Positions 2 to 16,259 of a stretch of DNA of 19,131 bases are shown in pieces (the first letter of the stretch is position 1; each line of letters begins with the position of its first letter). The translations under genes and the position numbers were made by a program. Origin of the DNA: a bacterium (GTDB lineage: Bacteria; JACRDZ01; JAJRWM01). Location of the stretch: positions 1 through 19,131 of the forward strand of contig JAJRWM010000197.1 of assembly GCA_024276815.1 (NCBI GenBank), given 5' to 3'. A model generated the notes under the pieces. The model ran no database searches and was not told the origin of the DNA. It worked only from the letters and a program-made list of their open reading frames with translations.

Positions 2-820
2 TGGACAGGAAAAGCGTATCGAATTCCAAGAGGAAATGTTAAGGATTGTGCTGATCGTTCTGAGCTAAAAAGCACAGCTGTATATATTCTATTCGGTGGG
101 GCGGAGTCATCGGCTAAAAAGCCAAAGGCTTATATTGGTGAAGCTGAAAATGTATATAGTAGGCTTGTACAACACGTTTCAGAAAAAGAATTCTGGAATG
201 AAGCTGTTGTGTTCATAAGCAAAGATGAAAACCTTAATAAAGCCCATATCAAATATCTTGAGTCAAGATTATTTGAACTAGCCTCTGATGCCAAAAGGTA
301 TGAAATCCAGAATGGAAATAGGCCTACTAGATCATCTATTTCAGAATCTGATCAAGCTGAAATGGAAGAATTTATCGAATATGTCAGGATGTTGGTTAAT
401 ACTTTGAATTTTAAAGTTTTTGAACCATTAGTAAAAGAAACCACAAGCATAGAAATGGATTCTGAAGAGCTATACCTAAAAGGAGCAAGAGGTGCTGCTG
501 GTCGAGGCAAGAGGGTAGTAGATGGATTTGTCGTTTTTAAGGATTCAGAGGCTGCATCATCAACTGTTCCATCATTCCCTAAAGGCTTCAATTCGCTAAG
601 AGATGAATTGATTGAGAATTAGGTAATAAAGGAAGAGCAAGGAAAGTTTGTATTCACTTCAGATTATTTGTTTAGCAGCCCATCAGCTGCTGCCACCGTT
701 ATTATGGGTCGTAGCGCCAATGGTCTGTTGGAGTGGCAAGATAAATCAAAAAAAACTCTCAAGGATATTGAGTCAAGTGAAATTGAAAAAGCGAACAAAG
801 CCATTCTACCAGTGGCTTAA
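2..820 (+). pseudogene. GIY-YIG nuclease with C-terminal DUF4357 domain, 5'-truncated by the window, broken by in-frame TAG
   Basis: The frame is open from the window edge. The GIY-YIG core starts near codon 27 (VYIL), followed by AYIGEA near codons 43-48, the SRL arginine at codon 54 and KYLESRL with the probable catalytic Glu at codon 87. From about codon 150 the sequence matches the DUF4357 family (GARGAAGRGK, VPSFPKGFNSLRDELIEN). A TAG stop lies at 620-622 (codon 207). The same frame continues with VIKEEQGKFVF, SSPSAAATVIMGRSANG and ends at TAA 818-820, which is the normal remainder of DUF4357. The gene is therefore complete apart from one nonsense codon. GIY-YIG/DUF4357 proteins are presumed DNA nucleases of unknown role, often near restriction or mobile loci. 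The region is more AT-rich than the rest of the window, suggesting acquisition by transfer. Family assignment is fairly sure; the cellular role is not known. Confidence 0.8.
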
Positions 821-857
821 AACAGGGGAATCTCGGATCAAGTCTTAACTACTACAC

Positions 858-1019
858 TTAAGGGGTCTTTCTTCGTATTGCTTCCAATTTTTCCAGGTCT
901 TCGATATCTTCTAAACGTTCCAGCATTTCCTGATATTCATTAATATCGAGAATTACAGCAGTTGGTTTACCTTCCCGCATAATTATTTCGGGAGCTTTTC
1001 TTTTTGATTTAGGCTTCAT
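858..1019 (-). CDS. Short Phd/YefM-type antitoxin, orphan
   Basis: A 53-residue reading frame begins at an ATG preceded by GGAG six bases upstream. It contains the motif typical of Phd/YefM antitoxins: a basic N-terminus, then GKPTAVILDINEYQEMLERL and a charged helix DIEDLEKLEAIRR. In the family the N-terminal part folds as a DNA-binding dimer and the C-terminal tail neutralises a RelE/Doc-type toxin. Here the protein stops at RRKTP, shorter than the usual 75-90 residues, so most of the toxin-binding tail is missing. No toxin gene follows; downstream lies the convergent GIY-YIG pseudogene. A good promoter lies just upstream. It is probably a decayed or solitary antitoxin. Assignment rests on motif recognition only. 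Confidence 0.72.
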   Translation of the reverse strand: MKPKSKRKAPEIIMREGKPTAVILDINEYQEMLERLEDIEDLEKLEAIRRKTP

Positions 1020-1053
1020 TGTCTTCTCCAAATAACAGCTATTTATGTACTTG

Positions 1054-1082
1054 ATTATAAAACATTGCGCTTTATTTTACAA
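1054..1082 (-). promoter_or_regulatory. Sigma70-type promoter for the antitoxin gene
   Basis: On the minus strand TTGTAA (1082-1077) and a perfect TATAAT (1059-1054) are separated by 17 bases, placing a start near 1047 and a leader of about 28 nt before the ATG. ACTTG and CAAGT flank the promoter as an inverted pair, with TAAAA/TTTTA inside it, a possible autoregulatory operator as expected for Phd-type antitoxins. Confidence 0.6.
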
Positions 1083-1099
1083 GTATTATCATAAATATC

Positions 1100-1168
1100 A
1101 AAGTTTTTGTGAGGGGGTTGTAGGGGGAGCGGTTTTTTTTCGAAAAAGAGTTCCCCCTACGAATCGCT
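1100..1168. repeat. Palindromic dispersed repeat, copy A
   Basis: The element begins AAAGTTTTTG and forms a hairpin: GTAGGGGGA (1120-1128) pairs with TCCCCCTAC (1152-1160), with TTTTTTTTCGAAAAA in the loop. A second copy at 16379-16445 shares the lead-in, the loop and the trailing TCGCT, while its stem differs in sequence but still pairs. It lies downstream of the minus-strand gene cluster and may also act as a terminator. Confidence 0.7.
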
Positions 1169-1174
1169 TCTAAA

Positions 1175-1210
1175 ATCCTTTGACGTTATCCTTTGACGTT
1201 ATCCTTTGAC
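1175..1210. repeat. 13-bp tandem repeat (ATCCTTTGACGTT)
   Basis: Two exact 13-bp units (1175-1187, 1188-1200) are followed by a partial third (1201-1210). A related TTTGACGTT recurs at 1225-1233, ending at the stop codon of the guaA remnant. Three close units are far too few and too short for a CRISPR array. Confidence 0.85.
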
Positions 1211-1231
1211 TTTAATATATTGACTTTGACG

Positions 1232-1348
1232 TTACTCCCATTCGATGGTGGCGGGTGGTTTGGAGCTTATATCATAGGTGACCCGATTAACGCCTTTGAC
1301 TTCGTTGATTATGCGATTGGAGATTATCGCCAGAACGTCCTTTATCTC
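1232..1348 (-). pseudogene. guaA: guaA (GMP synthase) 3'-end remnant
   Basis: Read on the minus strand, the last codons before TAA (1232-1234) give [15 protein letters not shown] and then [15 protein letters not shown], the hallmark C-terminus of glutamine-hydrolysing GMP synthase. Recognisable similarity begins around [10 protein letters not shown] (about 1335-1348) and nothing upstream resembles the rest of guaA; 57 bp further up is the stop of the secretin-like gene. It is therefore a detached piece of roughly 35 codons with no start. The 3' end of guaA is a known integration hotspot for genomic islands, and insertion there leaves just such a displaced fragment at the far end of the island. 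That explanation is inference; a deletion or duplication scar is the alternative. Confidence 0.8.
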
Positions 1349-1404
1349 GGAATGTCTGGGAATCGCGGATCGCTTATCCCGATATCGGGGGCCGGCCAGC
1401 CTTT

Positions 1405-3228
1405 TTATTCCACACGGCAGTTCAAAACAGCCATTACCTCAAGAGGCACCCGGTCAACGCTCTCGCTGGCCGTGACCTGGCCCAAAAGCGGTATCTTCCG
1501 AACCAGGGATTTCCGCTCCTGAGCCAGTTTGTCCTTCGAACGAATAATGCCGCCGATGATGAGAACGCCGGGAGCGGCGCTTTCCACTTCCTTTTCCACA
1601 GCTCTTTTTATTACCAGTGGTTTATCCCTGACGCCGGAAACAGGTATGACGCTGGCAAAGGCGTTTATCCCCAGTTTTATCCCTTTATCGGTCACCTCGC
1701 CCCGCAACACCATTTTGTAGCCCAGATCAAAGAAAGCTTTCTCCAGAACCAGGCTTCCCCCCGCGTCACGTTTTTCCAGGAAATATTCACCGCGCTGACC
1801 AAGAACCACCCGCTCTTGTTTGTTTTGCTTTATGAACAGAGAGCTGTTGTTGATGATTTTCACATCTTTGTCCCTGATCATTTGCTTTAAAGTTTTCTCA
1901 AAAATCGTTTTATCCTCAGGAAGGCCTATTACCAGTTGCTTGTTGTAAGAACCTTTGAAGGGCTGCCAGATTATCCTGAGCCGATCCTTGACCAGTGAAT
2001 TAAGCTGGATCAGTTTAAGTTCCACGACAATTTGCCGGGGCTTTTGCTGATTCCGGGATTCCGGTCGGCTAATAAACGGTTTCTTGCTCACTTGTTTTTT
2101 CTGTTCCTGTTGCTTAATCAGTGTGAAGGTATTACCTTCGCGGGTATATTCATAAGAACAAAGAGATAAAATCTCCGAAATGGCTTTCAGGACAGAAACG
2201 TCTTTCAGTTTTATGGAGATACGGTTACGAGGCTTGTTGTCCCCTTGGAAAGTCACGTTATATTTCCGGGCCAGCAGGTTGAATACCTGGTAAGCCGGTT
2301 TGTTTTGGTAGTGCAGGCTGATTGTCTGGTTGAAAATAGAGAGCGTGGGCGGAGCTACCCGATCAGGCTTGGGCAGCGGCGGCGACGCGGCGGCGGTTTT
2401 GTCAACCGGCGGCGGTAAAGTTAAAATAGGAATAGCGTCTTCTTTTTTCTTTTCAGCTTTTTGAGTTTCAATAACCAGACCCGGTCTACCGTTAAAATTT
2501 TCCAGATAATAATTGACGGCTCTGTCGAACTGAAATACTACTCTGGCGACCGGATTTGGTTGGGATTTAAATTGACCCAACCGCACTTCCGCCAGGCCGC
2601 TCCGGTTTACAACATGTTTTTTAGACGCCCTGGGGGCCAGAACAGCCTTGATATCCAGTACCTGCCGCTCCGGCTCTTTGAGGGTAAAGGTTTGATAATT
2701 AAGCAGAGACTCGCCATCAACGATGAATACGAGTTGATTATTCTCTTCCCGCGTCAGGATATTGGTAATTTTACCCACAAGGTTCGGATTAATCGTGGGC
2801 TTGTTCTGACGTGGTTTCTCACCCAAGTAGACCTGTTTTCCGCCGCCGCCGCTTTTAGTGTGAATAAACTCAATAGCAAGACTGTTGCCGGTCTTGTTCA
2901 GGTGATACCGGGTGTCTTGAGTCCGGTCGATGACTATCCTGACCGCTCGCTCGCTTTGACTCAGGCGAAGCCCGAGGATGACGCTGTCCTCAACCAAGAG
3001 ATAACGTTCCTTCCAGGGATAGGAGCTTTTTTCGATGTCGACAACCAGACGCGATGGTTCCAAAAACTCCAGTATTCTGTACTCAAACGGGGCGTCCGCC
3101 TGTATTGAGACCCTGGTCGTTGTGTCGGTGGTGTTGACAGTGATGTTTGACAGTTTCGCGGCAAAAAGCGAGAGGGTGAACAACAGGTTTAATATGATTA
3201 AGGTTAAAACTATTCGGATGTATCGCAC
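1405..3228 (-). CDS. AMIN-domain secretin-like outer-membrane protein (PilQ-related)
   Basis: The chosen start is GTG at 3228, because AGGGAGG lies five bases upstream and the protein then opens with a signal peptide ([16 protein letters not shown], residues 2-17). An upstream start at 3321 has no ribosome site. The 607 residues contain two AMIN domains (about 26-120 and 148-258), a proline-rich linker (265-295), a secretin/TonB short N-terminal domain (296-372) and a secretin-type segment (398-607) ending [24 protein letters not shown] domains bind peptidoglycan in PilQ-like secretins. The secretin segment is only about 210 residues and lacks the usual VPxLGDIPxLGxLF and FITPxIV endings, so a normal pore is doubtful. 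No other pilus genes are nearby. It is the last gene of the minus-strand cluster, 135 nt after the MoxR gene. Confidence 0.8.
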
Positions 3229-3363
3229 GAAATCCTCCCTTTTCCATTGCGCCATTTTAACTTTACCAGGATTTTGACCGGGACATTCTGGCTTAGATTG
3301 ATTTTTTAGTGAACCTATCATTCGGATCAGGAGCAGGGTCCACCCCGCAAAGGGTTGATTAAG

Positions 3364-4383
3364 TTACTTCGATTCGGGGACGTCCTGGAGCAGCTTATTA
3401 ATTATCTTCATGGTATCAACGCCCTCCGCCTCGGCATGAAAAGTTGTCACAATCCGATGCCTCAGAACCGCCGCCGCCACCGCCCTGATATCGGAACAAC
3501 TGACCGCGTATTCACCTCTCAAAATCGCCCGGGCTTTAGCGCCCAGAATCAGGTTCTGCGAAGCGCGCGGGCCGGCCCCCCAGCGTACCCATTCATTGAT
3601 ATATGACAATGAGCCATCCTGATGCGGCCGGGTGGCCCTGGTTAAGCGGACAGCGTATTCTATGACGTAATCAGCGGCCGGCACTTTGCGCACCAGGTCC
3701 TTGAGGTAAATAATTTCCTGAGCGTTCAGGACATGTCGCAACTCCGCTTCGTAGGCCGAGGTGGTAAGTTTGACAACATCAGCTTCCTCGCCGGCTGAGG
3801 GGTAATCAATATAAATATTGAACATAAAACGATCCAGCTGGGCTTCAGGTAAGGGATATGTGCCTTCCTGTTCGATAGGGTTTTGTGTTGCCAGGACGAA
3901 AAAAGGCAAGGGTAAATCATAAGTCCTGCCGGACACCGTAACCTTGTCTTCCTGCATGGCTTCCAGCAGAGCCGCTTGTGTTTTTGGCGGAGTCCGGTTT
4001 ATTTCATCAGCCAAAATAATGTTACCGAAAACCGGCCCTTTAAAAAAAACAAATTCGCGTTTGCCGGTATCAGGATTTTCCTGGATGATCTCGGTACCCG
4101 TGATATCGGAAGGCATCAGGTCCGGAGTGAACTGAATGCGTTGAAATTTCAGGTCCAGAACGCGGGCAAGCGTGCTGATCAACAACGTTTTTGCTAAACC
4201 GGGCACGCCGACAAGCAGGCAATGTCCCCGGGAAAGCAAGGCGATTAAAAGGTCTTCGACAATATGCCGCTGACCAATGATAACTTTTTCGATTTCGCCA
4301 AAAATCCGATCTCTGGCTTCCTTGACCTGGGCGATGTTCGCTTCGTCAGATTGCTGACTGGTGATACTCACGTCTACTGCCAT
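3364..4383 (-). CDS. MoxR-family AAA+ ATPase
   Basis: The 339-residue protein has the full MoxR signature: Walker A GVPGLAKT (59-66), Walker B IILADE (122-127) followed by INRTPPKTQAALLEAMQE, sensor 1 ATQNP (165-169), the arginine finger in LDRF (R185) and a sensor 2 arginine in GPRASQNL (R273). The start ATG is preceded by AAGGAG with good spacing. MoxR ATPases are cytoplasmic chaperone-like enzymes that mature or insert metal and cofactors, or assemble envelope complexes, usually together with DUF58 and von Willebrand factor A proteins. No such partner follows here; the next gene is the secretin-like one. It probably works on an envelope protein encoded in the same cluster, but its substrate cannot be read from sequence. 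Confidence 0.95.
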   Translation of the reverse strand: MAVDVSITSQQSDEANIAQVKEARDRIFGEIEKVIIGQRHIVEDLLIALLSRGHCLLVGVPGLAKTLLISTLARVLDLKFQRIQFTPDLMPSDITGTEIIQENPDTGKREFVFFKGPVFGNIILADEINRTPPKTQAALLEAMQEDKVTVSGRTYDLPLPFFVLATQNPIEQEGTYPLPEAQLDRFMFNIYIDYPSAGEEADVVKLTTSAYEAELRHVLNAQEIIYLKDLVRKVPAADYVIEYAVRLTRATRPHQDGSLSYINEWVRWGAGPRASQNLILGAKARAILRGEYAVSCSDIRAVAAAVLRHRIVTTFHAEAEGVDTMKIINKLLQDVPESK

Positions 4384-4525
4384 GTCTTCTCCTTAGTATT
4401 TGAATCGCAAAGTAAAATTTAACTCTGACGAAGTATTCACAGCTAATTTTACCTTAAAAACCACAGTGTTGGAATCATTAATTGTAAACAGGCAGGGCAA
4501 ATACGGCCCTTCTCAAAAAAGCAAA

Positions 4526-5800
4526 TTAACGCCTTTGGCCACCCTCCATTAATTTATTAATTATCTTGCGATATTTCGCGATCGCTTTCAACAGTTCCTT
4601 ATTCGCTTCCTCTAACTTGCCGTTGTTAGCCAGAAGTTTACCCAGTTCAGCATGCACCTGCGCTTCGTTGGGGTTCAGACGAACCTTTTTCGCGCTGCGC
4701 TTTTTCCTCATCATATTAAACAGGTCGCCCTTGCCTGACGAGGTGGAGCTGGTGGTTTTCTCTCCTTCAAAAAGGGCGATGGCTTCCTTGAAATTAGCGA
4801 GCGCCTCTTTTTCATTCTTCTGAGCCAGGCTCACCAGACCCAAACCGAATAAACCATCGCCGGAGTTAGGTGATAATTCCTTGATAAGCTCGAACTCAAG
4901 CTGAGCCTCAACCAGATTTTTCTGTCTTAACAGGAAAAAGCCGTAGTCTTTATGGAGTTTGACATTTTCAGGAGTCAAAACGATAGCGTTGTTGTATTCA
5001 ACGGTAGCCTCGTCAACTTTGCCTTTTTTATCATATATCTTGGCCAACAAGGTGTGAGGCGGAGCGAAGTCAGGATCTTCCTTGATCGAAGCCTGGAGTT
5101 TTTTGATCGCTTTATCCAAGAAGCCCATCGAGTACATTTGACGACCAAATTTCAGATGTTTGGCCGCCTGCCCCGTGGGCTTATAGCTTTTCCTGACCAT
5201 TTTCTTCCTGGCCGGCGCGAATCCCAAGGCGACTCTAACTTTTTCCGTGACAATTTTATCACCGTTCAGCCTGGGATAACCCGGTTGATCGTCGACAAGC
5301 TTACCGTCTTTACCTACTATGGCCAATGAAGGCAGGGTGATGACCCCGACATCGCTGAAAACTTTCAGCCCTTCGTCAAAAAGTACCGGAAAAGTATACC
5401 CGCCCTCCGCCATAATTTTATTAACAGCGTCTCTCTCATCGCTGGTTATCTTCTCATCAGTCCGAGGACAGTAAATTGCGATCAACTCAAAGCCCTTGTC
5501 TTCGTTATACCGGTCATACAAACCCTGCAGGGTGCGCATTGCCATATCACACCGGTTGCAGGGATGTTTAAAGAAAAGGATGGCCAGGATTTTGCCTTTA
5601 AAATCCGTTAACGATATTTCGCTGCCGGCAGTATCCCGAAGCTTGAAAGCAACCATGGGGTCGCCATCGTTGACTCTCTTGAATGCCGCGACTGAATGCG
5701 GCAGGCTGACACAAAACAGGATCACGGTAATCAGACACCAAGCCAACAGATGATGACTGAATTTCCTGTGAAAAGGGTTTAGCCGATTTAAGCAGATCAT
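4526..5800 (-). CDS. Thioredoxin-like (TlpA/AhpC-type) protein with C-terminal TPR repeats
   Basis: The 424-residue protein starts at an ATG with GGAGG six bases upstream. A signal peptide or anchor spans about 17-39 (LLAWCLITVILFCVSLP), so it is exported. Residues 45-195 form a thioredoxin-fold peroxiredoxin/TlpA-like domain with the active-site pair C81-N-R-C84 in FKHPCNRCD and the cis-proline in TLPSLAIV (P157). From about 208 the protein becomes a chain of TPR helices (FGRQMYSMGFLDKAIKKL; ALANFKEAIALFE; a last unit at 385-415). A periplasmic thiol oxidoreductase or reductase with a protein-binding arm is likely. It has its own strong promoter and lies between the DUF4175 and MoxR genes. 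The partner protein is unknown. Confidence 0.87.
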   Translation of the reverse strand: MICLNRLNPFHRKFSHHLLAWCLITVILFCVSLPHSVAAFKRVNDGDPMVAFKLRDTAGSEISLTDFKGKILAILFFKHPCNRCDMAMRTLQGLYDRYNEDKGFELIAIYCPRTDEKITSDERDAVNKIMAEGGYTFPVLFDEGLKVFSDVGVITLPSLAIVGKDGKLVDDQPGYPRLNGDKIVTEKVRVALGFAPARKKMVRKSYKPTGQAAKHLKFGRQMYSMGFLDKAIKKLQASIKEDPDFAPPHTLLAKIYDKKGKVDEATVEYNNAIVLTPENVKLHKDYGFFLLRQKNLVEAQLEFELIKELSPNSGDGLFGLGLVSLAQKNEKEALANFKEAIALFEGEKTTSSTSSGKGDLFNMMRKKRSAKKVRLNPNEAQVHAELGKLLANNGKLEEANKELLKAIAKYRKIINKLMEGGQRR

Positions 5801-5839
5801 GTGATTCCTCCAGAAATATATTTAAGTATTGTCTGATTT

Positions 5840-5869
5840 ATTATACAAATTCAAGACATCGCTTGTCAA
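5840..5869 (-). promoter_or_regulatory. Near-consensus sigma70 promoter for the thioredoxin/TPR gene
   Basis: On the minus strand TTGACA (5869-5864) and TATAAT (5845-5840) match consensus perfectly, with an 18-base spacer. Transcription would start near 5833 and give a leader of about 33 nt containing GGAGG before the ATG. It allows thioredoxin/TPR, moxR and the secretin-like gene to be transcribed independently of the upstream PQQ-DUF4175 pair. Confidence 0.75.
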
Positions 5870-5933
5870 ATTAAAGCCTTACCCGCACAGGGCAACAGGC
5901 AAACTCTAATTAAAGCATTAAAAATCAAAAAAC

Positions 5934-5992: not shown

Positions 5993-6004
5993 ACGTAATT
6001 GGCC

Positions 6005-6691
6005 TTAGTACCCGGTTGAAAGTCCGCGAAAATACTCCTGGACCAGTTGCTTATAAGGTTCGGGAATATTCTTTGCCGGGCTAACCGGCATAATACCTTT
6101 CTTTTCGTTATTTTCGGGTAACGAGACGGGCGGCGGCGAGGGCGCGCTGGTAAACTCCCGGGGCCTTTCCGCCTGTCTTCTTTTTTCTTTACCCTGACGA
6201 TGCTGTGACCTTTGAGCATCCAGGAGCCTGGTCAGAATCCGCCGCTGTTTCTCGATAATTTCCTTGCTCAGGTTCCTGTCGCCCAGGTGACGCGATACTT
6301 CATCGCTGTCCTTTGCCGCGTCGCTCAGCCGACCCAGCATCTGCCCCAGTTTTTCCATATCCTCCATGACTGATCTTAGTTCATCACTCATAACTGATTG
6401 TTCAAAAGCCAGTTGTTGCAGCATTTCCTGTTCGAAGGGCTGCAACGACTCTCCCCGCATCAGTTTTTCCGATAACATCCGGGTTAAATCGTTGATCCCC
6501 TGTTGCTGTTCCGACATATTCTGAAGGTTTTCCGTCACGCCTTCCCCCTGACCGCCGGCAGACTTGGAAAGCTGCCGGTATTGGAGCATTAACGAGGTGA
6601 TAATTGTATTAAACGATTTCAAAGCGTCTTTGCTTAACGACAGGCTGGGTTTAACTTTTTTCTGTTCGAGTTGCTCAACGCCCCGGGTCAT
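6005..6691 (-). CDS. DUF4175 protein, C-terminal part after an in-frame stop
   Basis: This frame is the direct continuation of the upstream DUF4175 frame: the stop TAA (6697-6695) is followed by AAG and then this ATG with no frame change. The 228 residues are helical and glutamine-rich (MSEQQQGINDLTRMLSEKL), then carry the family's ending: RILTRLLDAQRS, an arginine-rich stretch, a proline-rich linker and PEPYKQLVQEYFRGLS. An AGGA about 12 bases before the ATG is a poor ribosome site, so reinitiation after the stop is conceivable but weak. Alone this piece has no membrane segment or signal. Either it is a separate soluble subunit or the tail of a broken gene; the second is more likely. Confidence 0.78.
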   Translation of the reverse strand: MTRGVEQLEQKKVKPSLSLSKDALKSFNTIITSLMLQYRQLSKSAGGQGEGVTENLQNMSEQQQGINDLTRMLSEKLMRGESLQPFEQEMLQQLAFEQSVMSDELRSVMEDMEKLGQMLGRLSDAAKDSDEVSRHLGDRNLSKEIIEKQRRILTRLLDAQRSQHRQGKEKRRQAERPREFTSAPSPPPVSLPENNEKKGIMPVSPAKNIPEPYKQLVQEYFRGLSTGY

Positions 6692-6694
6692 CTT

Positions 6695-9373
6695 TTAAAT
6701 GGTCCTGGAAACCAGTAAGACCAGTTCATAATTGAACAGAGGCGATTTGTCAGCGATCCGCTGCATTTTATCCATCACCTTGCGGCTGTTTTCAATGATA
6801 TCCGTTTCCCGCTGGGCGGTATGGGAAAGTTCGGTTTTACTTAATTCGTTAACCGGCCGGCGACTCGCCTGGTCAACCTTTTCCACAAAAACCTCTTGGC
6901 GAAAGGACAGATAAAAGACATCGTTTATCACGACCTCAAGAGCCGCTAATAATTCCGTCTGATCCTCCACTTCCATCGTCTTGCCGGCGCTGCCCACTTT
7001 TTTCCCGAATTGAAACAAACCGAATAAAGATTGTTCTTCTTTGACTAAGGCCTGAGACGGTTTTTTCTGTTTTAAGCTTTTGGCGGCCTGCTTCATTTTT
7101 TCCGATATTTTCTGCTGGTCCATCTGTTTCAGCGCTTCTTCAAGCATTTTTGACGCTTTGGGATTGTCTTTTTTCATTTGTTCGGCGAGCGCCCGCATCT
7201 TTTTCTTGAGCTCATCCAGACGTTTGGCCAGCTTTTCCTGGCGTTTCGCTAATTCCTTGGACATCTGGTCTTTCATTTTTTGATTTTTCTCTTGGCTTAA
7301 CTTTGCGGTCTCCCGCTGGATACGTCTTTGTTCTTCCATGATGCTCTTGTTCTCGCTGATCAGGCTGTCGAGTTCCTGTTTGTTTTTCATTTGCTTTAAG
7401 AGTTTCAGGGTGCGCTCGACTTTTTTCTCAAAAGCTTCCGCGTTAAATTTAGCCTGCAATAATTCTTTTTGTTTATCAGTCAAATTAATGTTGCTGATAG
7501 CCTTGTTGAGTTTGTTCATCGCTTCTTTCATTTCGCTGGTGAGGACTTCGTTGAGCAGGCGGTTGATTTGTTTCATTTTTTCCATGGTCGAATATTTGAT
7601 AATTTTGTTTTCCGATAATTTTTTTACGCTTTGACTCATCTCGCTGAGAATTTTCCGCATCTGTTTGTTAATTTCCCGCTGACGTCTGGCAATATCTTGA
7701 AGCTCTTTTTTCTGCGCCCAGTTCAGGTTTTTCTCTCTCTTGAGATTGTCATACAGATTCGAGACTTTTTCCTTGATAAAACGCTGCTGTTCCATGAGCG
7801 ACCGCAATCCCGATTCCTGCATTTTTTGTTCGCTGTCCACATCCTGATAAATCTCGGCCATGGTTGGCAGGCGCAGACGCCGGCGAACGGAGAGACCTCG
7901 CTTGCCGCCCCTTACGCCGTCATTATCCCAGACCGCCGCCTGGTAGGTTAACTGGTCGCCCGGGAAATATAAAAGAGAGCTTAGGTCCCAAAGATACTCC
8001 TCCCCGGTTTGAAGAACCCTTTCCGTATATTTAACTACGGGAACAATAACCTCCTCCCCGTTGGAACGAAAAGCGATTAGCTCGATACGGTCAATGCCAA
8101 AATCATCACTGGCTTTTACGATAACTCTTAATTTCATCGATTCGTCAAGATCAACATCTGAATCGGGCGAGATTAGCGAAATTTGAGGTTTTTTATCAGG
8201 ATATACGAGTATGGGAGTAATTACCGGGTTCTTGTTGATGAACCCATCGTTGTCCTGCACGCTCAAATAGTACTTGTCGCTTTCAGTGGCGATAAACGAG
8301 GTTCGCAGACTGGCCTTGGCAATTTTTGTAATTGTTTTGGGAGCAGCCTTTTCGAATACCAGGCGGGCGCTTTTGATGGGCTTGTTGGCGGTAGCGGTAA
8401 TTGATATTTCGGTGCCGTAGAGAGCTTCTAGGGCGGCGTCAATCTCTGTTGTAGTACGGTTGGGTAAACCGGTATACTCAGGATATTTGTAGGTCACGGA
8501 CTGGGTCAGGATTTTCGGCTCATGCTGTACGTTTATGGTGTAAATCACTGAACGGGCCAGTTCGGAATCAACATAGTATTCAAAGGACTTGAAGAGATTG
8601 CTAAACGTATAATAATAGTTAATTCCGTCCCTGGTTTTCAGGGGCCTGGTTTCCCATTCACCGCCAAAATAGCGGTATTTTAACTCAGCGGAGGCGGGCA
8701 GCTGGCCCAGTGCCATAACCTTGAGAGTTAAATCCTTCCCGGTCAGAACACTGACCGAGCCGGGTTCCACCTTGAACTTGGTAGCCAGTCTGATGGGTTG
8801 ATTCCGTTCGGGAAGCAGGTACTGATCGTATAGATAAGAAAAGTAGGCGGGCGCGATCCCGACACAGGAGATATAAATCATCAGGACCGCCAGAAGCAGA
8901 AAAACACTGTCGCGCAACTGGTCCCAGTTTATTAGCCGCGCAGGCCGTTTGCCGCGAAGACGGGAACTGACCTGTGACTGTAAAAGCCTGATCAGGCCGG
9001 GCGAATACCCCAACCTCTGATCGAGCAGGTCTTTTTCCAGTTGGATTGAACTTACCAGATAGCCGTCAAAATAATCGCTGTCTTTCTCCAGGTTGAAAAC
9101 CGTATTGTTTACGTTGAACAGCTCTTTGAGATGATATGTGAAGATGAAAAATAAAGGTAAAAAAAACGCGTAGGGCAACCAGGAGATTATCAGTCTCCGC
9201 GCCGCTGGATCAATATTCACCAGGCGTTCGGCTATCAACAGAACAGCCGCTACGATCAGAAACAGGAGCGAAAAACAGGAGATATCCCGGAGCGACAGGT
9301 TAAGAAAATACAGAAACTGTGCCAGGCGGAGCCGCTTCCTGAGTTCGCTGTTCTGTATCGACTGAGCTTTCAT
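6695..9373 (-). CDS. DUF4175-type membrane protein with long coiled coil, N-terminal part
   Basis: The 892 residues show membrane helices at about 31-49, 60-82 and 155-177, then a periplasmic beta-rich region (about 200-490; YKYPEYTGLP near 295-304 is typical of DUF4175), then a long lysine/glutamate/glutamine coiled coil (about 510-790). The frame ends YELVLLVSRTI, a position where DUF4175 homologues continue into a helical tail; that tail follows in the same frame after TAA. Full length would be about 1122 residues. DUF4175 proteins have no established biochemical role. The start ATG is 29 nt after the PQQ gene and has only a weak AGGA upstream, suggesting coupling to that gene. Context points to an inner-membrane structural or tether protein acted on by the MoxR ATPase, which is inference. 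Confidence 0.82.
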   Translation of the reverse strand: MKAQSIQNSELRKRLRLAQFLYFLNLSLRDISCFSLLFLIVAAVLLIAERLVNIDPAARRLIISWLPYAFFLPLFFIFTYHLKELFNVNNTVFNLEKDSDYFDGYLVSSIQLEKDLLDQRLGYSPGLIRLLQSQVSSRLRGKRPARLINWDQLRDSVFLLLAVLMIYISCVGIAPAYFSYLYDQYLLPERNQPIRLATKFKVEPGSVSVLTGKDLTLKVMALGQLPASAELKYRYFGGEWETRPLKTRDGINYYYTFSNLFKSFEYYVDSELARSVIYTINVQHEPKILTQSVTYKYPEYTGLPNRTTTEIDAALEALYGTEISITATANKPIKSARLVFEKAAPKTITKIAKASLRTSFIATESDKYYLSVQDNDGFINKNPVITPILVYPDKKPQISLISPDSDVDLDESMKLRVIVKASDDFGIDRIELIAFRSNGEEVIVPVVKYTERVLQTGEEYLWDLSSLLYFPGDQLTYQAAVWDNDGVRGGKRGLSVRRRLRLPTMAEIYQDVDSEQKMQESGLRSLMEQQRFIKEKVSNLYDNLKREKNLNWAQKKELQDIARRQREINKQMRKILSEMSQSVKKLSENKIIKYSTMEKMKQINRLLNEVLTSEMKEAMNKLNKAISNINLTDKQKELLQAKFNAEAFEKKVERTLKLLKQMKNKQELDSLISENKSIMEEQRRIQRETAKLSQEKNQKMKDQMSKELAKRQEKLAKRLDELKKKMRALAEQMKKDNPKASKMLEEALKQMDQQKISEKMKQAAKSLKQKKPSQALVKEEQSLFGLFQFGKKVGSAGKTMEVEDQTELLAALEVVINDVFYLSFRQEVFVEKVDQASRRPVNELSKTELSHTAQRETDIIENSRKVMDKMQRIADKSPLFNYELVLLVSRTI

Positions 9374-9402: not shown

Positions 9403-9792
9403 TTATTCTCCGAAGCTGAAAAGATAGCCGTCAGATGTGGGAATTAACAACTGACGATTTAAAACCGCCGGATCGGCGCTTAAGCGACCGCTGGTAGAGT
9501 AACTGGCTTCCAGTGTCAAGGTTGCCACGTTGATGACATAGAGCTTGCCATCGTCGGCTCCAAGGTAAAGATAATTATCGGCGATGGTTGGAGAGGCCAT
9601 GATCTTGTCGTTAATGGCGTAGGAATTTAACCGCTCTCCCCGGTCAGCGTCCAGGACATACAGTTCACCGCCATAAGTGCTGACGTACAATTTATTTTTA
9701 TAAAGCGCCGGAGAGCCCAGCATCTTGAAACCAATTGAATGCGACCAGATAACTTTGCCGTTGGCGGTGTTCAGGCAGTAAGCGTAGCCGTC
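9403..9792 (-). pseudogene. PQQ propeller lipoprotein, C-terminal fragment after second in-frame stop
   Basis: Directly after TAA 9795-9793, without a frame change, the sequence reads DGYAYCLNTANGKVIWSHSI and on to DGYLFSFGE at the TAA 9405-9403. It supplies most of blade 5 and blades 6-8 of the second propeller, including the closing blade. The first ATG (9723) has no ribosome site and falls inside a blade, so independent expression is unlikely; without this piece the second propeller cannot close. Confidence 0.75.
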
Positions 9793-11352
9793 TTAAGCGG
9801 CCAAATAGACTTTGCCGTTCGCCGCGGCGGCCGCGTTTCGCAGCCAGCCGGCGGTTTTATAACGCCACAACTCCAGGCCGGTGTCTTCATCCACGGCGTA
9901 GACGTTGGAATCATTGGAACCAAAAATCACTTTGTGATCGGTCAGGATCGGCGTTGACAGCACCGGCCCTCCTGTTTTGAAACGCCAGACCAGTTTCCCG
10001 TTGTTTTTGTCTACGGCGTAGAGGTCTTCGTCATAGGAACCAAAAAAGACCAGCCTTTGGGAAGCCACCGGTGAGGAATTTATTTTCCCCTTTGTCTGGT
10101 ATTTCCAGACCGGCTTTCCGGAAAACCGGTTCAAGGCATAAAAATAGTTGTTATTACAGCCAAAATAGACGTTCTCATCGTCCACAAAAGCATTGCTGAA
10201 GATCGGTCCGCTCGTCTTGAACGACCATTCGCGGCTCCCGTCTTTCAGGTTGAAACAGAGAAATTCGTTATCCGTAGTGCCAAGATAAATCAAATTGCCT
10301 TTGACTACCGCGGAAGTCCTGATACCGCTCGCGGCCTTGATCTTCCACAAAACTTTTAACGGCGGCCTGGGTGCCTTATCATTGACGCCCAACCCGGAAA
10401 GGGAGCCGCGGTAAAAGTTCCAGTCCCGCGATGATCTGTCCTTCTTCGCCGATGCTTTTGCGTCTGGCTCAACAACCCCGCTTAAAGCAGCTTTCGCCTT
10501 GACAATCATTTCCTTATATTTCCCATTATCAGGATCGAGCTTTAAGGCGTCTGTGAACTGAAAAAGAGCTAGCTGGTAATCTCTTTCATCATACGCTTGC
10601 ATCCCTGTTTGGTAGAAAACAGCACCGGCTTCCACTGGCGTCATGGTTTCAAGAACCCGCAAGAACCCTCCCGTATCCGTTAAATAAAGGTGATTATCAG
10701 AAATCAAAGGGCGGGATTTTATTTTCCCTTCAAGCTTGATCCGCCAGGCTTTTAAACCGTCATCAAGCCCGATACCATAGAAGCTACCGGCATCTGAACC
10801 AACATAGACATAGTTTTTATAGACAAGCGTTCCGGCATCCACCTTGTCGTCGGCGGTGAATTGCCAGTTCAGAACACCGTTACCGGCATTGAGACAATAC
10901 ACGTTTTTATCATGAGAGCCGAAGATGACCCTCTCATCAGCGTAAGTAGCCTGTCCCCGGACCTTGCCCCTGGTGGCAAATTTCCAGACCAAGCTGCCAT
11001 TTTTGACGTTAAGCGCGTAAAAGTTTTTATCATCACTGCCAAAAAACACTTTACCATCGGCGACAATCGGGCTGGAATAAACATCCGCCCCGGTTTCGTA
11101 ACGCCAGAGCAGTTTACCGCTGGAAGCGTCAAGCGAATATAAACTGTTATCATAGGAACCAAAATAAAGCCGGCCCGAATAATAGGTCGGAGTGGAATAA
11201 ATATTGCCTTTGGTCTTGAATTTCCAGATCAGGGTGCCTTTTTTAGCGTTCAAGGCATACATCGAATCATCGTAAGAACCGATATAAACGATACCGCGTT
11301 TGTATAGCGGGGAACCTAATATCCGCCCCTTGGTTCTGAACTCCCAAAGCAC
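9793..11352 (-). CDS. PQQ-type beta-propeller protein, central part
   Basis: The 519 codons follow TAA 11355-11353 in the same frame, opening with GTG (VLWEFRTKG). They encode blades 3-8 of a first PQQ/quinoprotein-like propeller, each with a pattern such as VYxGSxDxxxYALN and GxLxWKF, then a linker with one TPR-like unit (about 260-300; VFYQTGMQAYDERDYQLALF), then blades 1-4 and part of blade 5 of a second propeller up to VYLAA and TAA. The GTG has no ribosome site. PQQ-like propellers in the periplasm act as quinoprotein dehydrogenases or as protein-binding scaffolds (BamB type). No quinoprotein active-site residues are evident, so a scaffold role is more likely. Neighbours: N-terminal part upstream, DUF4175 gene downstream. 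Confidence 0.82.
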   Translation of the reverse strand: MLWEFRTKGRILGSPLYKRGIVYIGSYDDSMYALNAKKGTLIWKFKTKGNIYSTPTYYSGRLYFGSYDNSLYSLDASSGKLLWRYETGADVYSSPIVADGKVFFGSDDKNFYALNVKNGSLVWKFATRGKVRGQATYADERVIFGSHDKNVYCLNAGNGVLNWQFTADDKVDAGTLVYKNYVYVGSDAGSFYGIGLDDGLKAWRIKLEGKIKSRPLISDNHLYLTDTGGFLRVLETMTPVEAGAVFYQTGMQAYDERDYQLALFQFTDALKLDPDNGKYKEMIVKAKAALSGVVEPDAKASAKKDRSSRDWNFYRGSLSGLGVNDKAPRPPLKVLWKIKAASGIRTSAVVKGNLIYLGTTDNEFLCFNLKDGSREWSFKTSGPIFSNAFVDDENVYFGCNNNYFYALNRFSGKPVWKYQTKGKINSSPVASQRLVFFGSYDEDLYAVDKNNGKLVWRFKTGGPVLSTPILTDHKVIFGSNDSNVYAVDEDTGLELWRYKTAGWLRNAAAAANGKVYLAA

Positions 11353-11742
11353 TTAACCGTTTGATTTACGTAAAGCGTAGACGCTGCCGTCCTTGCCGGC
11401 GACAAAAACCCGGCGGTCGTCAAGAGCGACGGCGCTCCAGATACCATCTTGCGCCTTGAATTTCCACACGATTTTATGGGTTTTCTTGTTAACCGCATAG
11501 AGATTGTGGTCCAGAGAACCGAAAAAGAGCGTTCCCTTTGATTCTTTCACCGCAGAATAAAGCGCCAGGCCGGCGCTCATCTGCCAGGAGACTTTGAAGG
11601 GCGGAGCGAAATCACTGGCGATGATCCGCGCAACCGGGTATCGCTCGCCTCTTTTTTGCGTTTTTACGGCCGACCCACACCCCTGAACCATGATTAACGC
11701 GGCCATGAAACAGCCGAATATTAATTGTCTTGATAAATGCAT
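11353..11742 (-). CDS. PQQ propeller lipoprotein, N-terminal part with lipoprotein signal
   Basis: The start is ATG at 11742, preceded by GGGGAA about eight bases upstream; TTG at 11823 lies inside the promoter and is rejected. The 129 residues begin with a signal peptide and lipobox VQGC (C22), so the product would be lipid-anchored. Residues 55-129 hold the first two PQQ-type blades (LFFGSLDHNLYAVN and VFVAGKDGSVYALR). The frame is cut by TAA after KSNG, where other blades of this protein have K, T, S, V or L before a hydrophobic-x-Trp strand; AAA to TAA is the simplest change. Joined with the next two fragments it gives a 779-codon protein with exactly eight plus eight blades. Confidence 0.82.
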   Translation of the reverse strand: MHLSRQLIFGCFMAALIMVQGCGSAVKTQKRGERYPVARIIASDFAPPFKVSWQMSAGLALYSAVKESKGTLFFGSLDHNLYAVNKKTHKIVWKFKAQDGIWSAVALDDRRVFVAGKDGSVYALRKSNG

Positions 11743-11794
11743 CTTGTTTTCCCCGGTGATTTTTTGATGAGTCAAATAGCTACACTCTGCGCTT

Positions 11795-11823
11795 AAGATA
11801 GCAGAAATCATAAAAAGCTTCAA
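11795..11823 (-). promoter_or_regulatory. Promoter of the PQQ/DUF4175 transcription unit
   Basis: On the minus strand TTGAAG (11823-11818) and TATCTT (11800-11795) are 17 bases apart, and the -10 is extended by TGC just before it. The start would be near 11788, giving a leader of about 46 nt. It is a moderate match; no other good candidate is seen before the ATG. Confidence 0.5.
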
Positions 11824-11890
11824 GTCAAATAGAGTTTAAAATGATTTAAAAGTAATTTCCCTCCTGGCGGTAAAATCACCCAATCAACCG

Positions 11891-11912
11891 TTTTTGTCAT
11901 ATTTTTGTCATA
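11891..11912. repeat. Perfect 11-bp tandem repeat upstream of the cytochrome promoter
   Basis: TTTTTGTCATA occurs twice back to back, ending five bases before the -35 box of the plus-strand promoter. The 11-bp period puts both copies on nearly the same face of the helix, as expected for an activator binding as a direct-repeat dimer. The regulator is unknown. Confidence 0.65.
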
Positions 11913-11917
11913 TTCGA

Positions 11918-11946
11918 TTGACAACAAGCGGGAAAAGCCATAATAA
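11918..11946 (+). promoter_or_regulatory. Sigma70-type promoter of the octaheme cytochrome gene
   Basis: TTGACA (11918-11923) and TAATAA (11941-11946) are spaced by 17 bases. Transcription would start near 11953, about 55 nt before the ATG. The leader contains TTATCT and AGATAA as a short inverted pair. Confidence 0.7.
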
Positions 11947-12008
11947 TAAGGTGTGTTATCTTTCATGATAGCCGCTGTTGAGATAATTAAACCGTGATCG
12001 AGAGGGAC

Positions 12009-13232
12009 ATGTTCAAAAAACTTTCGTTTGTTTTACTTTTCGTTGCGTTTTGCTCTTTTAGCTATGCGGAGGGAAAGGAATATTCCGTAAAAGACCGGCA
12101 GGATAAAAACAACGGCGGTTGCATTGATTGTCATCTTGAAATAACGCCGGGGATAGTTCGTGATTTTTTCAGCGGCGTTATGTCCAAAAAAGGGGTCACC
12201 TGCGCCTCCTGCCACGGTAACGACCACGACAACCTGGAAAGCCCCAACATATACAAATGTATGGAATGTCATGTCAAACAGTATACCCAGTTTACCAACG
12301 GGAAGCATTCGCTGGCCTGGATTGCCATGAAAAACCTGCCGGAAGTCGCCAACCAGCCCGAAGAAGTTATCAAGAGAGGTTGCGGATCCTGCCATCGCAT
12401 TGGCAGAAATGGCGGTATGTGCGACTCCTGCCATACCCGTCACCGCTTTTCCAAGGCTGAGGCGCGTCGGCCGGAAGCCTGCCTGCCTTGTCACGCCGGC
12501 ATAGAGCATCCTCAATATGAAATGTGGAAAACTTCCAAGCATGGCGTGATATACGGATCGGAGGGGGCAACAGACCGTGCTCCAACCTGCGCTACCTGCC
12601 ATATGGACGAAGGCAACCACCAGGTGCCTTCGTCCTGGAAATTCCTTGGCCTCAAGCTTCGCCAGAGCAATATCGAGTTGCCGGGATTTAGCGAGAAACT
12701 GCTGGATAAGAGAAACGTTTCGGGCAACAAACAACCAGCTAATGATGATAAAAAAACCGTTGGCGGAGCCATTCAAAACGAAGAAATGGAATGGCAGGCC
12801 AGTCGCAAAAAACAGATTAAGATTTGCCGGAAATGCCATTCTGAAAAATACGCGGAACAGACCTTCCTGGATAATGAAAACCTTCTTAAAGAAGTGGATC
12901 AATTGATGTTGGAAGCCTTCGAAACTGTTGAGAAACTATATGAGGAAGGCATCCTGGAAAGACCGACGGAGTTGCCAACGCATCCGGACCATCTGGAATT
13001 CTTCGAGTTTAATTCCATTCTGGAACAAAGACTTTATATCATGTTCCTGGAACACCGTGCCCGAACCTTCATGGGAACTTTCCACAATAACCCTCAATAT
13101 ACTTATCGTTATGGCTGGATCCAGATAAAAAGGGATTTGGCGGAAATCAAGGATGAAGCGAAGAAATTACGCGACAGCTACGATGTGCAAAAAAAATTGC
13201 AACCGTCGGGTTCCGAAAAACAAGACAAGTAG
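12009..13232 (+). CDS. Octaheme c-type cytochrome of the hydroxylamine oxidoreductase (HAO) family
   Basis: Starting at ATG 12009 (GAGAGGG just upstream; a GTG at 11994 lacks a ribosome site), the 407-residue protein has a signal peptide (FKKLSFVLLFVAFCSFSYA) and eight CxxCH heme sites at about 38, 65, 84, 125, 138, 158, 194 and 273. The segment MWKTSKHGVIYG followed by TCATCHMDEGNH, heme 8 in KICRKCH, and a long helical C-terminus are typical of HAO-like octaheme cytochromes. Family members oxidise hydroxylamine or hydrazine, or reduce nitrite. A tyrosine-rich NPQYTYRYGW (about 361-370) sits where HAO carries its heme-crosslinking tyrosine, but the crosslink cannot be judged here. The protein is shorter than classical HAO, has no membrane anchor, and no quinone partner is encoded nearby. 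Reductive activity is plausible in an anaerobe but unproven. Confidence 0.85.
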   Translation: MFKKLSFVLLFVAFCSFSYAEGKEYSVKDRQDKNNGGCIDCHLEITPGIVRDFFSGVMSKKGVTCASCHGNDHDNLESPNIYKCMECHVKQYTQFTNGKHSLAWIAMKNLPEVANQPEEVIKRGCGSCHRIGRNGGMCDSCHTRHRFSKAEARRPEACLPCHAGIEHPQYEMWKTSKHGVIYGSEGATDRAPTCATCHMDEGNHQVPSSWKFLGLKLRQSNIELPGFSEKLLDKRNVSGNKQPANDDKKTVGGAIQNEEMEWQASRKKQIKICRKCHSEKYAEQTFLDNENLLKEVDQLMLEAFETVEKLYEEGILERPTELPTHPDHLEFFEFNSILEQRLYIMFLEHRARTFMGTFHNNPQYTYRYGWIQIKRDLAEIKDEAKKLRDSYDVQKKLQPSGSEKQDK

Positions 13233-13354
13233 ACAGTTTCATTATTTTAAGTTTACGGCCTTGGTTGCCGCTTGCCCTGCATCACCCGCTGAGCGCTCTT
13301 GCGAAGTGGAAGAGTTATTAATTAAACCATGCTGTGCGGGGATATATTATAACA

Positions 13355-14479
13355 ATGGGAAAATATTTTGATTATAACGCGACGACGCCGGTGGCGCAAA
13401 AAGTTCTGGAAGCAATGTTACCCTACTTCTCCATTCGCTACGGCAATCCCTCCAGCCAGCATAAACCGGGTAAGGAAGCGGCGTTAGCCGTGAAAAAAGC
13501 CAGGGAGGCGATCGCTGATTGCTTAAAGGTCAACCCGGATGAACTGGTTTTTACCTCAAGCGGCACGGAAGCCAACAATACGGCGATTAAAGTCGTCGCG
13601 TACGCCGCTAAACACCGTGGTTGTCATTTAATCACGACCTTAAGCGAACATCACTCTGTGCTGAACACGATGAGGGAACTTGAAAACGAAGGATTTGAGG
13701 TCACCTATCTGCCGCTTGAAAATTCGGGTGTCGTTAATTTAGACGCTTTAAAGCGGGCGTTAAGGGACGACACTGTCATGGTTTCAATAATGGCGGTTAA
13801 CAATGAAACTGGTGTTATCCAGCCGCTTAAGGAAACAGGGCGAATATTAGGCGACAAACCGGTTGTTTTTCATTCTGATATGGTGCAGGCATTAGGCAAA
13901 ACACCACTGGATTTATCCGGTTGGCGGGTGGACCTGGCCTCTTTTTCGGCTCATAAAATTTACGGTCCCAAGGGTATGGGATTGTTATACGCGAAAAGGG
14001 GGATTCAGTTATGGCCGATAATTCACGGCGGCAGTCAGGAGAACCGTCGGCGGGCCGGAACTGAGAACGTACCGTCGATTATCGGTTTCAGCTCCGCGGT
14101 CAGGCGGATATTGGCAAACCGGGAGGAGGTCTGGGCGAAGCAGGCTGAGGCTCGTGACCGGCTGGAAAATTTCCTGAGACAAGTTCATCCGGCTCTTATC
14201 GTGAATGGCGAGGCGGCGAAGCGAGTAAACAACACCTCGAATTTCATAATACCCGGCGTAAACGGCAAGCGCCTGGTCAGCGATCTGAGTAAAATTGGCT
14301 ATTATATCGCGAGCGGCGCGGCCTGCGCTTCGAAACAGACTGAACCGTCGCATGTTTTGCTGGCGATGGGTATCAAGCCTGAACTGGCTTTGGGCGCGGT
14401 GAGGATATCATTGGGTATCGACATTTCAGTCTCTGAAATAAAGAAACTGGGTAGTGTCATATCTGACTGTGCAAAATAA
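13355..14479 (+). CDS. Cysteine desulfurase, NifS/IscS class (PLP-dependent)
   Basis: The 374-residue protein begins MGKYFDYNATTPV, the standard opening of NifS/IscS proteins; an upstream GTG at 13334 would add residues not seen in the family. It has the cofactor-stacking histidine in SEHHSVL (about 99), the PLP lysine in SFSAHKIYGPKG (K201), RRAGTENVPSIIGF, and the catalytic cysteine in SGAACASKQTEPSHVL (C324) in a loop the same length as in IscS. It mobilises sulfur from cysteine for Fe-S clusters or thiolated RNA. No IscU-like scaffold, IscR or MnmA gene is next to it, so its pathway cannot be fixed. No clear ribosome site precedes the ATG; a GGGGA lies about 13 bases away. A weak hairpin (GTCTT/AAGAC) with TTATTT follows the stop. 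Confidence 0.93.
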   Translation: MGKYFDYNATTPVAQKVLEAMLPYFSIRYGNPSSQHKPGKEAALAVKKAREAIADCLKVNPDELVFTSSGTEANNTAIKVVAYAAKHRGCHLITTLSEHHSVLNTMRELENEGFEVTYLPLENSGVVNLDALKRALRDDTVMVSIMAVNNETGVIQPLKETGRILGDKPVVFHSDMVQALGKTPLDLSGWRVDLASFSAHKIYGPKGMGLLYAKRGIQLWPIIHGGSQENRRRAGTENVPSIIGFSSAVRRILANREEVWAKQAEARDRLENFLRQVHPALIVNGEAAKRVNNTSNFIIPGVNGKRLVSDLSKIGYYIASGAACASKQTEPSHVLLAMGIKPELALGAVRISLGIDISVSEIKKLGSVISDCAK

Positions 14480-14546
14480 TTTGATTTGACAGTAAATCGT
14501 TAATAAATAAGTAAGGCGTCAGTCTTCCGGGGAAAAGACCTTATTT

Positions 14547-14599
14547 GTCATTCCCGTGCCAACGGGAATCCACTGGATTCCTGCATACGCTGGAATGAC
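14547..14599. repeat. Palindromic REP/MITE-like element (GTCATTCC...GGAATGAC)
   Basis: The 53-bp element begins GTCATTCCCG and ends GGAATGAC, with internal GGAATCCA and TGGATTCC arms forming an imperfect palindrome. This pattern is a widespread bacterial intergenic repeat. The following bases to 14639 are also shared with the half copy at 5934-5992, so the repeating unit extends beyond the palindrome. It lies between the cysteine desulfurase and response-regulator genes. Confidence 0.82.
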
Positions 14600-14649
14600 A
14601 TTACTGCTTCCCCCACTTCACTGACGGGTTATAAATGAAAACTTTTAGC

Positions 14650-14678
14650 TTGCAAAAAATGATGATTTAAGGTAGCAT
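14650..14678 (+). promoter_or_regulatory. Probable promoter of the response-regulator gene
   Basis: TTGCAA (14650-14655) and TAGCAT (14673-14678) are 17 bases apart, in AT-rich sequence just after the palindromic repeat. The start would be near 14685, leaving a short leader before ATG 14712. Confidence 0.45.
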
Positions 14679-14711
14679 ATTATATTAAGTATCATGATGT
14701 TAGGGACGTTA

Positions 14712-15095
14712 ATGAAGCCAAAACTGTTAGTCGTCGATGATGATCCTGATATCCTGGGATTTATCGAATTGTTGATTGATATCAATGATGACTGTGAGTG
14801 CGAACTCTTCACCGCGACAACCGGTGAAGCCGCCTGTAAAATAATTCAAAGCAATGATCTTGCCTTAATCCTCCTGGATGTTTATCTGCCCGATACCAGC
14901 GGTTATGATTTGTGCAACCTAATCAAGGAAAACCGCGCCACCCAGCATATCCCGGTATATTTGTTCTCCGCCAGCGCTTCGGGACACGATGAGTCCCGCA
15001 AAAAGAGAATAAAGCATGACGGGATTATCTCCAAGCCGTTTGATAACGATGAGTTCCTAGGCTGCATCAACAGAAATTTAAAACCCTGTTGTTAA
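14712..15095 (+). CDS. Single-domain response regulator (CheY-like receiver)
   Basis: The start chosen is ATG 14712, because AGGGA lies five bases before it; an ATG pair at 14694/14697 has no such site. The 127-residue product is only a receiver domain: the acidic cluster in VVDDDPDI, the phospho-acceptor aspartate in ALILLDVYLPD, the S/T switch region in YLFSASAS and the conserved lysine in ISKPFD. There is no output domain, so it must act through protein contact or as a phosphate relay. No histidine kinase is in the window. Its last 18 bases overlap the 3' end of the convergent RlmD-type gene. Confidence 0.92.
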   Translation: MKPKLLVVDDDPDILGFIELLIDINDDCECELFTATTGEAACKIIQSNDLALILLDVYLPDTSGYDLCNLIKENRATQHIPVYLFSASASGHDESRKKRIKHDGIISKPFDNDEFLGCINRNLKPCC

Positions 15096-15971
15096 AACGG
15101 CGATGTTTTCGATGTGAAAAGTCTGGGGAAACAGGTCCAGCGGCTGAATCCATTCAACGTTATAAGCGTTTTCGCACAGAACGGCCAAATCTCTCGCCAA
15201 GGTGACCGGATCGCAGGAAAGATAGACCAGGCGGCGGTGTTGACGTTTTACCAGTTCCCTGATTAGCTTTTTTGAGCAACCGGTTCTGGGCGGGTCAAGA
15301 AGCGCGACGTCAAATTTGTTGCCAAGATCGGTTAAAATATCCGCCACCTCGCCTCTGATAAACTTTATATTCTGGCAGTTGTTGTCACGGGCATTTGCCC
15401 GCGCGTTAACAATCGCCCGCCGGTTCTGTTCGATACCGATAACCTGTTTCGCCCGTTTCGCCAAAAACAAGCCCAGCAAACCGACTCCGCAATAGGCGTC
15501 CACCACGACGTCGGAACCACGAACCTCGCAGGCGTCCACGACGTTCTCAATCAATTGGGGCAGGATGTGATAGTTCACCTGGAAGAACCCGTCAGCCGCG
15601 TAACCTAATTTCAACCCCCTGACTTTATGATAAAGGGGTTCCACTGATCTCAAGCCGGGACAAACATAGAAACTTTTACCGCTTCCGTCCACCCTGATAG
15701 TCACGGGGGATACGGGGTTATGCCGAGCCAGCTTTGCTTTTATTTCCGGCAGCCGGTTGTTTATTGGCTCCTCCAGTAACAGGCAGGACTCTATATTTAT
15801 CAAATTCCCCTTACGTTTGTGATAGCCCAGGCTTAATTCCCCGGCCCGGGAAAATGGATGGAAGACCGCTTTGTTACGGTAATGATAAATTTCGGGGGAC
15901 GGAATGGTTGGCCTGACCTGGTCATCGTCGAGTTCAATTTTACCAATCCTGGCCAAGCTTTCAATTACCTG
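15078..15971 (-). pseudogene. RlmD/RumA-type 23S rRNA uracil-C5 methyltransferase, catalytic part after an in-frame stop
   Basis: Directly after TAA 15974-15972 the frame reads QVIESLARIGKIELDDD, the expected continuation of the N-terminal part. It contains the fourth Fe-S cysteine (IESC), the FFQVN motif, the SAM-binding DAYCGVGLLGL, LLDPPRTGC and the catalytic cysteine in LVYLSCDPVTLARDL, all intact. The only early start is TTG at 15956 with no ribosome site, so translation of this part on its own is doubtful. The enzyme family makes 5-methyluridine in 23S rRNA or tRNA; RlmD versus a TrmA-like paralogue cannot be settled here. Confidence 0.82.
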
Positions 15972-16259
15972 TTAACGCTTGATCTTAAGCTGGTAAGCGT
16001 AAGCCATATGCTGATACTGGCAACCGCCGCAGATTGTGAAATATTGACAGGTTGGCTCAATACGTTCCCGGGCGGGATTGATTATTTCAATCAGGCCGGC
16101 CTGACGAAAGCGGCTGTTGGGTTCGGGTATGGTAATCAGCGCTGTTTCACCCTCGATAACGTGAGGAACAAAAACGATGCCCGATTCCAGGCGGGACAGC
16201 CCCCAGCCGTGGTAAACTATTTTTTCAATATTAACTGGAACTTCATTATTAGAAGACAT
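15972..16259 (-). CDS. RlmD/RumA-type methyltransferase, N-terminal TRAM/Fe-S part
   Basis: The 95-residue frame begins at ATG 16259 with an AGGG only two bases upstream. It encodes an OB-fold TRAM domain (about 6-60; GWGLSRLESGIVFVPHVIEGE) and three of the four Fe-S cysteines in CQYFTICGGCQYQH (C71, C77, C80). It stops at TAA right after YQLKIKR, in the middle of the conserved KR-x-QV helix; GAA or CAA would be the natural codon. As a free product it lacks both the fourth cysteine and the catalytic domain and would be inactive. Confidence 0.82.
   Translation of the reverse strand: MSSNNEVPVNIEKIVYHGWGLSRLESGIVFVPHVIEGETALITIPEPNSRFRQAGLIEIINPARERIEPTCQYFTICGGCQYQHMAYAYQLKIKR

Follow-up and report, generated by a model that had tools for sequence, protein, structure and literature searches.

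In-frame TAA and TAG codons at glutamate positions in a fragmentary bacterial genome: probably a faulty or strain-mixed consensus

Why should several neighbouring genes of one bacterial contig be interrupted by stop codons while their reading frames continue undisturbed on the other side? The window analysed here, the entire contig C132 (19,131 nt; JAJRWM010000197.1, assembly GCA_024276815.1), belongs to the draft, fragmentary assembly of an uncultured bacterium (2.39 Mb in 246 contigs, 91% complete, 3% contaminated), for which a search for relatives yielded only three genomes of the same phylum. A sequence-only reading of the window had described five in-frame stops, and all five are present, the frame resuming at the next codon in each case. 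The genes and their interruptions are as follows.

2-817, plus strand: GIY-YIG-like/DUF4357 gene with one interruption, its 5' end cut by the contig end (the GIY-YIG label was given by eye only)
620-622, plus strand: in-frame TAG within the DUF4357 domain of the gene read at 2-817, seen in the sequence
6005-9373, minus strand: DUF4175-like gene with one interruption, terminating at TAA (Pfam DUF4175 below cut-off)
6695-6697, minus strand: in-frame TAA in the DUF4175-like gene, with coding potential on both sides
9403-11823, minus strand: PQQ_2/Beta-prop_ACSF4 propeller gene with two interruptions, terminating at TAA (Pfam)
9793-9795, minus strand: in-frame TAA in this PQQ/BamB-type propeller gene (sequence, coding potential, Pfam)
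11353-11355, minus strand: second in-frame TAA of the same propeller gene, with Glu in the aligned repeats of a relative
15078-16259, minus strand: 23S rRNA m5U1939 methyltransferase gene of RlmD type with one interruption, terminating at TAA (NCBIfam TIGR00479)
15972-15974, minus strand: in-frame TAA in the RlmD (RumA)-type methyltransferase gene

The earlier description of otherwise intact genes carrying nonsense codons is borne out by the DUF4357, propeller and RlmD genes, which are recognised across their stops or on both sides of them. Pfam DUF4357 is matched over positions 1-54 of 54 (residues 200-253) with the TAG at 620-622 as residue 207, while the propeller and RlmD genes have profile matches on either side, the latter scoring 312.6 bits against TIGR00479 (cut-off 183.55). 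At the RlmD stop, 27 aligned homologues have mostly Lys, Glu, Asn or Gln, and the relatives of this gene in other genomes have no stop at the matching place; a natural split there, named in advance as something that would speak against an interruption, is not seen in them. The site at 6695-6697, in the DUF4175-like gene, is the weakest of the five: there is an ATG two codons downstream of the TAA, Pfam DUF4175 scores below its cut-off, and a search for a homologue spanning the stop found none; a gene junction at this position is possible. Among the interrupted genes lies an intact one for a multihaem cytochrome c (11994-13232; Pfam Multi-haem_cyto, 110.5 bits). The window also carries, at 14511-14631, one copy of a REP- or MITE-like dispersed repeat, about 121 bases long and containing an inverted repeat; at least 11 copies, about 94-98% identical, are spread over 10 of the sampled contigs.

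The extent of the phenomenon was judged on 60 sampled contigs of the same assembly (about 610 kb, 611 kb of it readable), and the genome-wide count proposed earlier shows an effect that is spread over the genome and larger than first reported, as only the window had then been available. A coding-potential scan produced 87 candidate stops with same-frame coding on both sides. About half of these, judged by eye, are natural gene junctions provided with a start and ribosome-binding site, and 34 (20 TAA, 12 TAG and 2 TGA) were retained as interior stops, a choice made by eye and by homology. A count by homology only gave 20 interior stops among some 60,000 codons covered, as against one in 66,729 by the same criteria in G003, a relative of the same phylum. 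For this count, antisense, misframed and gene-end matches were removed from a raw list of 37, and one site in PrmC was added; among those dropped were the plus strand of L068 near 4133-4271, L106, and a match to an E. coli prfB query lacking its programmed frameshift. Family searches over the whole genome agree with this: a single TAA turned up in the 33 ABC ATPase domains and another in the 46 response-regulator domains, the 32 HATPase domains hold one TAG, and the 33 radical-SAM domains have no such stop; none was found among the ABC ATPase matches listed for three relatives (139 matches in all).

The affected genes include conserved and normally essential ones (CysS, GlmU and PrmC), and PtsI and GAPDH are affected as well. 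PrmC, the release-factor glutamine methylase (L120:9796-10530), adjoins RF1 and has in-frame TAGs at 9847 and 10360. The densest patch of the sample, L072:2204-5728, holds five in-frame TAA or TAG codons within 3.6 kb, in genes for GAPDH, a MenA-like and a ComF-like protein, and in a HAMP-domain receptor-like gene that has two of them. The sites cluster by contig (p = 0.004), with L072 and L084 among the site-rich contigs. The window itself is rich in them, with 5 where the other contigs would predict 0.94 (p = 0.003), having been picked for this very reason. The statement that frameshifts are absent holds within the window and fails in the wider sample, where two candidates (L084 at about 1270 and L127 at about 6730) stand in conserved frames against some 20 homology-supported nonsense sites, so that defects of the indel type probably do exist in the assembly at low frequency.

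Which residue has been replaced? The earlier argument was that the original residue varies from site to site and hence speaks against a single identity. The alignment of homologues at the stop sites, as then proposed, points the other way: over the 19 TAA/TAG sites with homologues, the best log-likelihood is that of all-Glu (-39.7), followed by a symmetric mixture of G>T and C>A (-42.8), a uniform single-base change (-47.2), all-Lys (-49.2), all-Gln (-49.4) and deamination (-51.6). In the fit, Glu accounts for a fraction of 0.98, and fractions down to about 0.5 stay within 2.3 log units. Homologues have Glu at the stops of CysS (HH*NEIAQ), GAPDH (WYDN*WGYS), PtsI, GlmU and YgiQ, at one of the two TAG sites of PrmC, where it is conserved, and in 19 of 22 references at the ABC ATPase column; the stop in ribosomal protein S1, where homologues have Leu and Ile, is an exception. 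The ratio of TAA to TAG (about 20:12) resembles that of GAA to GAG (4.17:2.82). From these alignments a single identity, Glu, fits best, and the underlying change would be GAA/GAG to TAA/TAG. The scatter of residues between sites is what distant homologues of one Glu position look like. Deamination damage is ruled out by the source residues. Readthrough as Gln is rejected, as it would require Gln sites to be no rarer than Glu sites, and columns in which the references agree showed no Gln site.

Of the possible explanations, we favour in-frame stops that stem from a faulty or strain-mixed consensus sequence, and hold this with moderate confidence (a probability of roughly 0.55). A single-base change from G to T at the first position of Glu codons would turn GAA and GAG into TAA and TAG, and the T would sit in the assembled consensus, outside any working decoding system. 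Base errors or alleles of minority strains could have entered the fragmentary short-read assembly, more densely on some contigs than on others. The right end of the window (18991-19131) overlaps the start of contig C95 (L103) by about 141 bases, which are 99.3% identical and show a single small difference, and such overlaps between contig ends point to short-read graph assembly. The simplest account is a codon-blind G>T error or a mixture of strains, and the clustering by contig agrees with it; together with the excess of sites preceded by T (15 of 32, as against 27.5% of Glu codons; p = 0.015), this clustering suggests a process at the level of the DNA or of the assembly. The scarcity of frameshifts is consistent with error of the substitution type. 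Moreover, such alleles in CysS, GlmU and PrmC would be intolerable to a living cell that lacks suppression. A damaged or strain-mixed consensus, listed earlier as one option among several, has thus become the preferred account, and the view that neither ordinary decay nor indel error lies behind the stops is sustained by the few frameshifts, the rejected deamination model and the affected core genes. A literature search for sequencing artefacts of this kind found nothing.

The principal difficulty for a faulty or mixed consensus is that a codon-blind G>T change must also yield Asp-to-Tyr and Gly-to-Cys/Trp replacements. At a local identity of at least 0.4, where stops occupy 6 of 1,150 Glu positions, 18 such replacements were observed against 35 expected, which is fewer even than their own reverse changes (21). 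This deficit has p = 0.016-0.035 over three thresholds with the uncertainty of the rate included, the rate itself resting on few events. Where two reference genomes share the residue of a column, Asp-to-Tyr occurs at 0 of 349 positions and Glu-to-stop at 2 of 324; nor are such missense changes clearly in excess in GAPDH, which lies on the densest contig. A codon-blind change must likewise strike the other strand, turning Ser and Tyr codons into stops, and the residue fit needs none of these. No obvious surplus of G>T is seen in the dispersed repeat, which several affected contigs carry, or in the tRNA genes, a comparison of little power; as an error gauge the 121-base repeat was set aside for having too few private changes. 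An asymmetry of base changes over all aligned codons was also discarded, being confounded by base composition and by one contig with E. coli as its sole reference. The missing missense changes count against codon-blind error or strain mixture at about two standard deviations.

The same difficulty confronts a related explanation, in which the nonsense alleles are real and segregate in a natural population, a G:C-to-T:A mutator episode being one possible origin, with the assembly sampling a mixture of strains and each cell keeping intact copies of its essential genes. It would account for pure substitutions of the single type G>T, for the clustering by contig, and for stops in essential genes, which only a mixture could tolerate. 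However, it predicts the same missense changes as sequence error, of which no excess is seen, and at the one locus tested the assembly holds no second copy of the stop-bearing gene. We regard segregating alleles as unlikely, if still the strongest competitor of a faulty consensus.

A less likely alternative is a natural ochre/amber suppressor that inserts Glu, with a UUA-anticodon tRNA, encoded in the unassembled part of the genome, reading a fraction of UAA and UAG (UAR). Changes from GAR to UAR would then be nearly neutral and could spread over all genes, whose ends would still be mostly UAR. In its favour are Glu as the best single identity, a TAA:TAG ratio like that of GAA:GAG, explicable by one UUA tRNA, the absence of the missense twins, and the otherwise intact state of the affected conserved genes. 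Termination, however, looks entirely ordinary. UAA or UAG ends 271 of 423 sampled genes (64%; TAG alone 23%), which agrees with the earlier statement that both codons still terminate, and in this sample neither avoidance nor special marking of UAR at gene ends was seen. Backup stops within five codons follow TAA in 18%, TAG in 12% and TGA in 28% of cases; with UAR this common at gene ends and backup stops rarer than after TGA, UAR terminates normally. The release factors, whose inspection had been advised, are both full length and unaltered (PVT and GGQ in RF1, SPF and GGQ in RF2). The suppressor tRNA proposed as a check did not appear: no UUA or CUA anticodon occurs among the 32 typed tRNAs (33 detected) of a set that is incomplete and also lacks those for Asn, Trp and Tyr, and a pattern search for a UUA loop gave no match. 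Lawful recoding of UAR is thus not supported, since UAR ends 64% of genes without backup stops, the release factors are normal and no typed tRNA reads UAR.

Further points against a suppressor are that no relative examined shows comparable stops, that the sites cluster by contig, and that no bacterial precedent was found. The prior for recoding is low because UAR = Glu is absent from the known bacterial code changes that PMC8629427 describes, and Blastocrithidia, which has it, is a eukaryote (PMC12153298). That UAA and UAG should mean both stop and Glu throughout a bacterial genome, an intermediate caught early, seems accordingly improbable to us. If the bases were real, one might speculate that a weak PrmC favours readthrough. 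Neither account is clean, recoding being at odds with normal termination and the lack of a tRNA, and random error or mixture with the missing missense changes. An origin of the contigs from a different, recoded organism is not supported, since 8 genes of the site-rich window end in TAA, 2 in TAG and 1 in TGA. That natural gene junctions or split genes were taken for interruptions is very improbable overall: about half of the raw candidates, by eye, were ordinary in-frame junctions and the ATG downstream of 6695 fits one, yet at 20 sites this reading is refuted by homologues that are continuous across the stop, several within invariant motifs (HHxNEIAQ in CysS, WYDNxWGYS in GAPDH), as are the RlmD relatives at their matching place.

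If the stops result from sequence error or strain mixing, this genome is unfit for claims about gene loss or codons, and counts of Glu-to-stop changes give an inexpensive check on the quality of similar assemblies. Should the bases be real, this would be the first bacterium to our knowledge to read UAA and UAG as glutamate while still ending genes with them, the ambiguous intermediate called for by theories of code evolution.

We know of no bacterial counterpart to the position-dependent termination of ciliates. The dual-meaning stops of ciliates (PMC4967479) resemble the present case in having both sense and termination use; there, termination depends on nearness to the transcript end, whereas here most genes end normally. 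As in a UAR = Glu code of the Blastocrithidia or peritrich type, in-frame UAA and UAG are found at the Glu positions of homologues. In the nonstop nuclear code of Blastocrithidia, UAR is Glu, UGA is Trp and UAA is also a stop (PMC12153298), so that both cases share UAA/UAG at Glu positions and UAA at gene ends. Blastocrithidia is a eukaryote with a full change of its nuclear code, whereas in the present genome UAR seldom occurs inside genes, UAG serves as a terminator too, UGA has not been reassigned and the search for a UAR-reading tRNA found none. False calls of stop reassignment caused by pseudogenes or contamination are discussed in PMC8629427, and our case is like these in its in-frame stops at conserved columns and lack of a suppressor tRNA, and unlike the pseudogene cases reported there (transitions, UGG to stop) in its Glu source and G>T transversion. 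More generally, the pattern does not conform to ordinary pseudogene decay, with its frameshifts, transition stops from Gln, Trp and Arg, and dispensable genes. Consensus error and strain mixture are known from low-coverage metagenome assemblies. Codon-blind error there would bring accompanying missense changes, undetected here, while the scattered substitutions, few indels, clustering by contig and fragmentary short-read assembly are features that our case shares with such consensus error.
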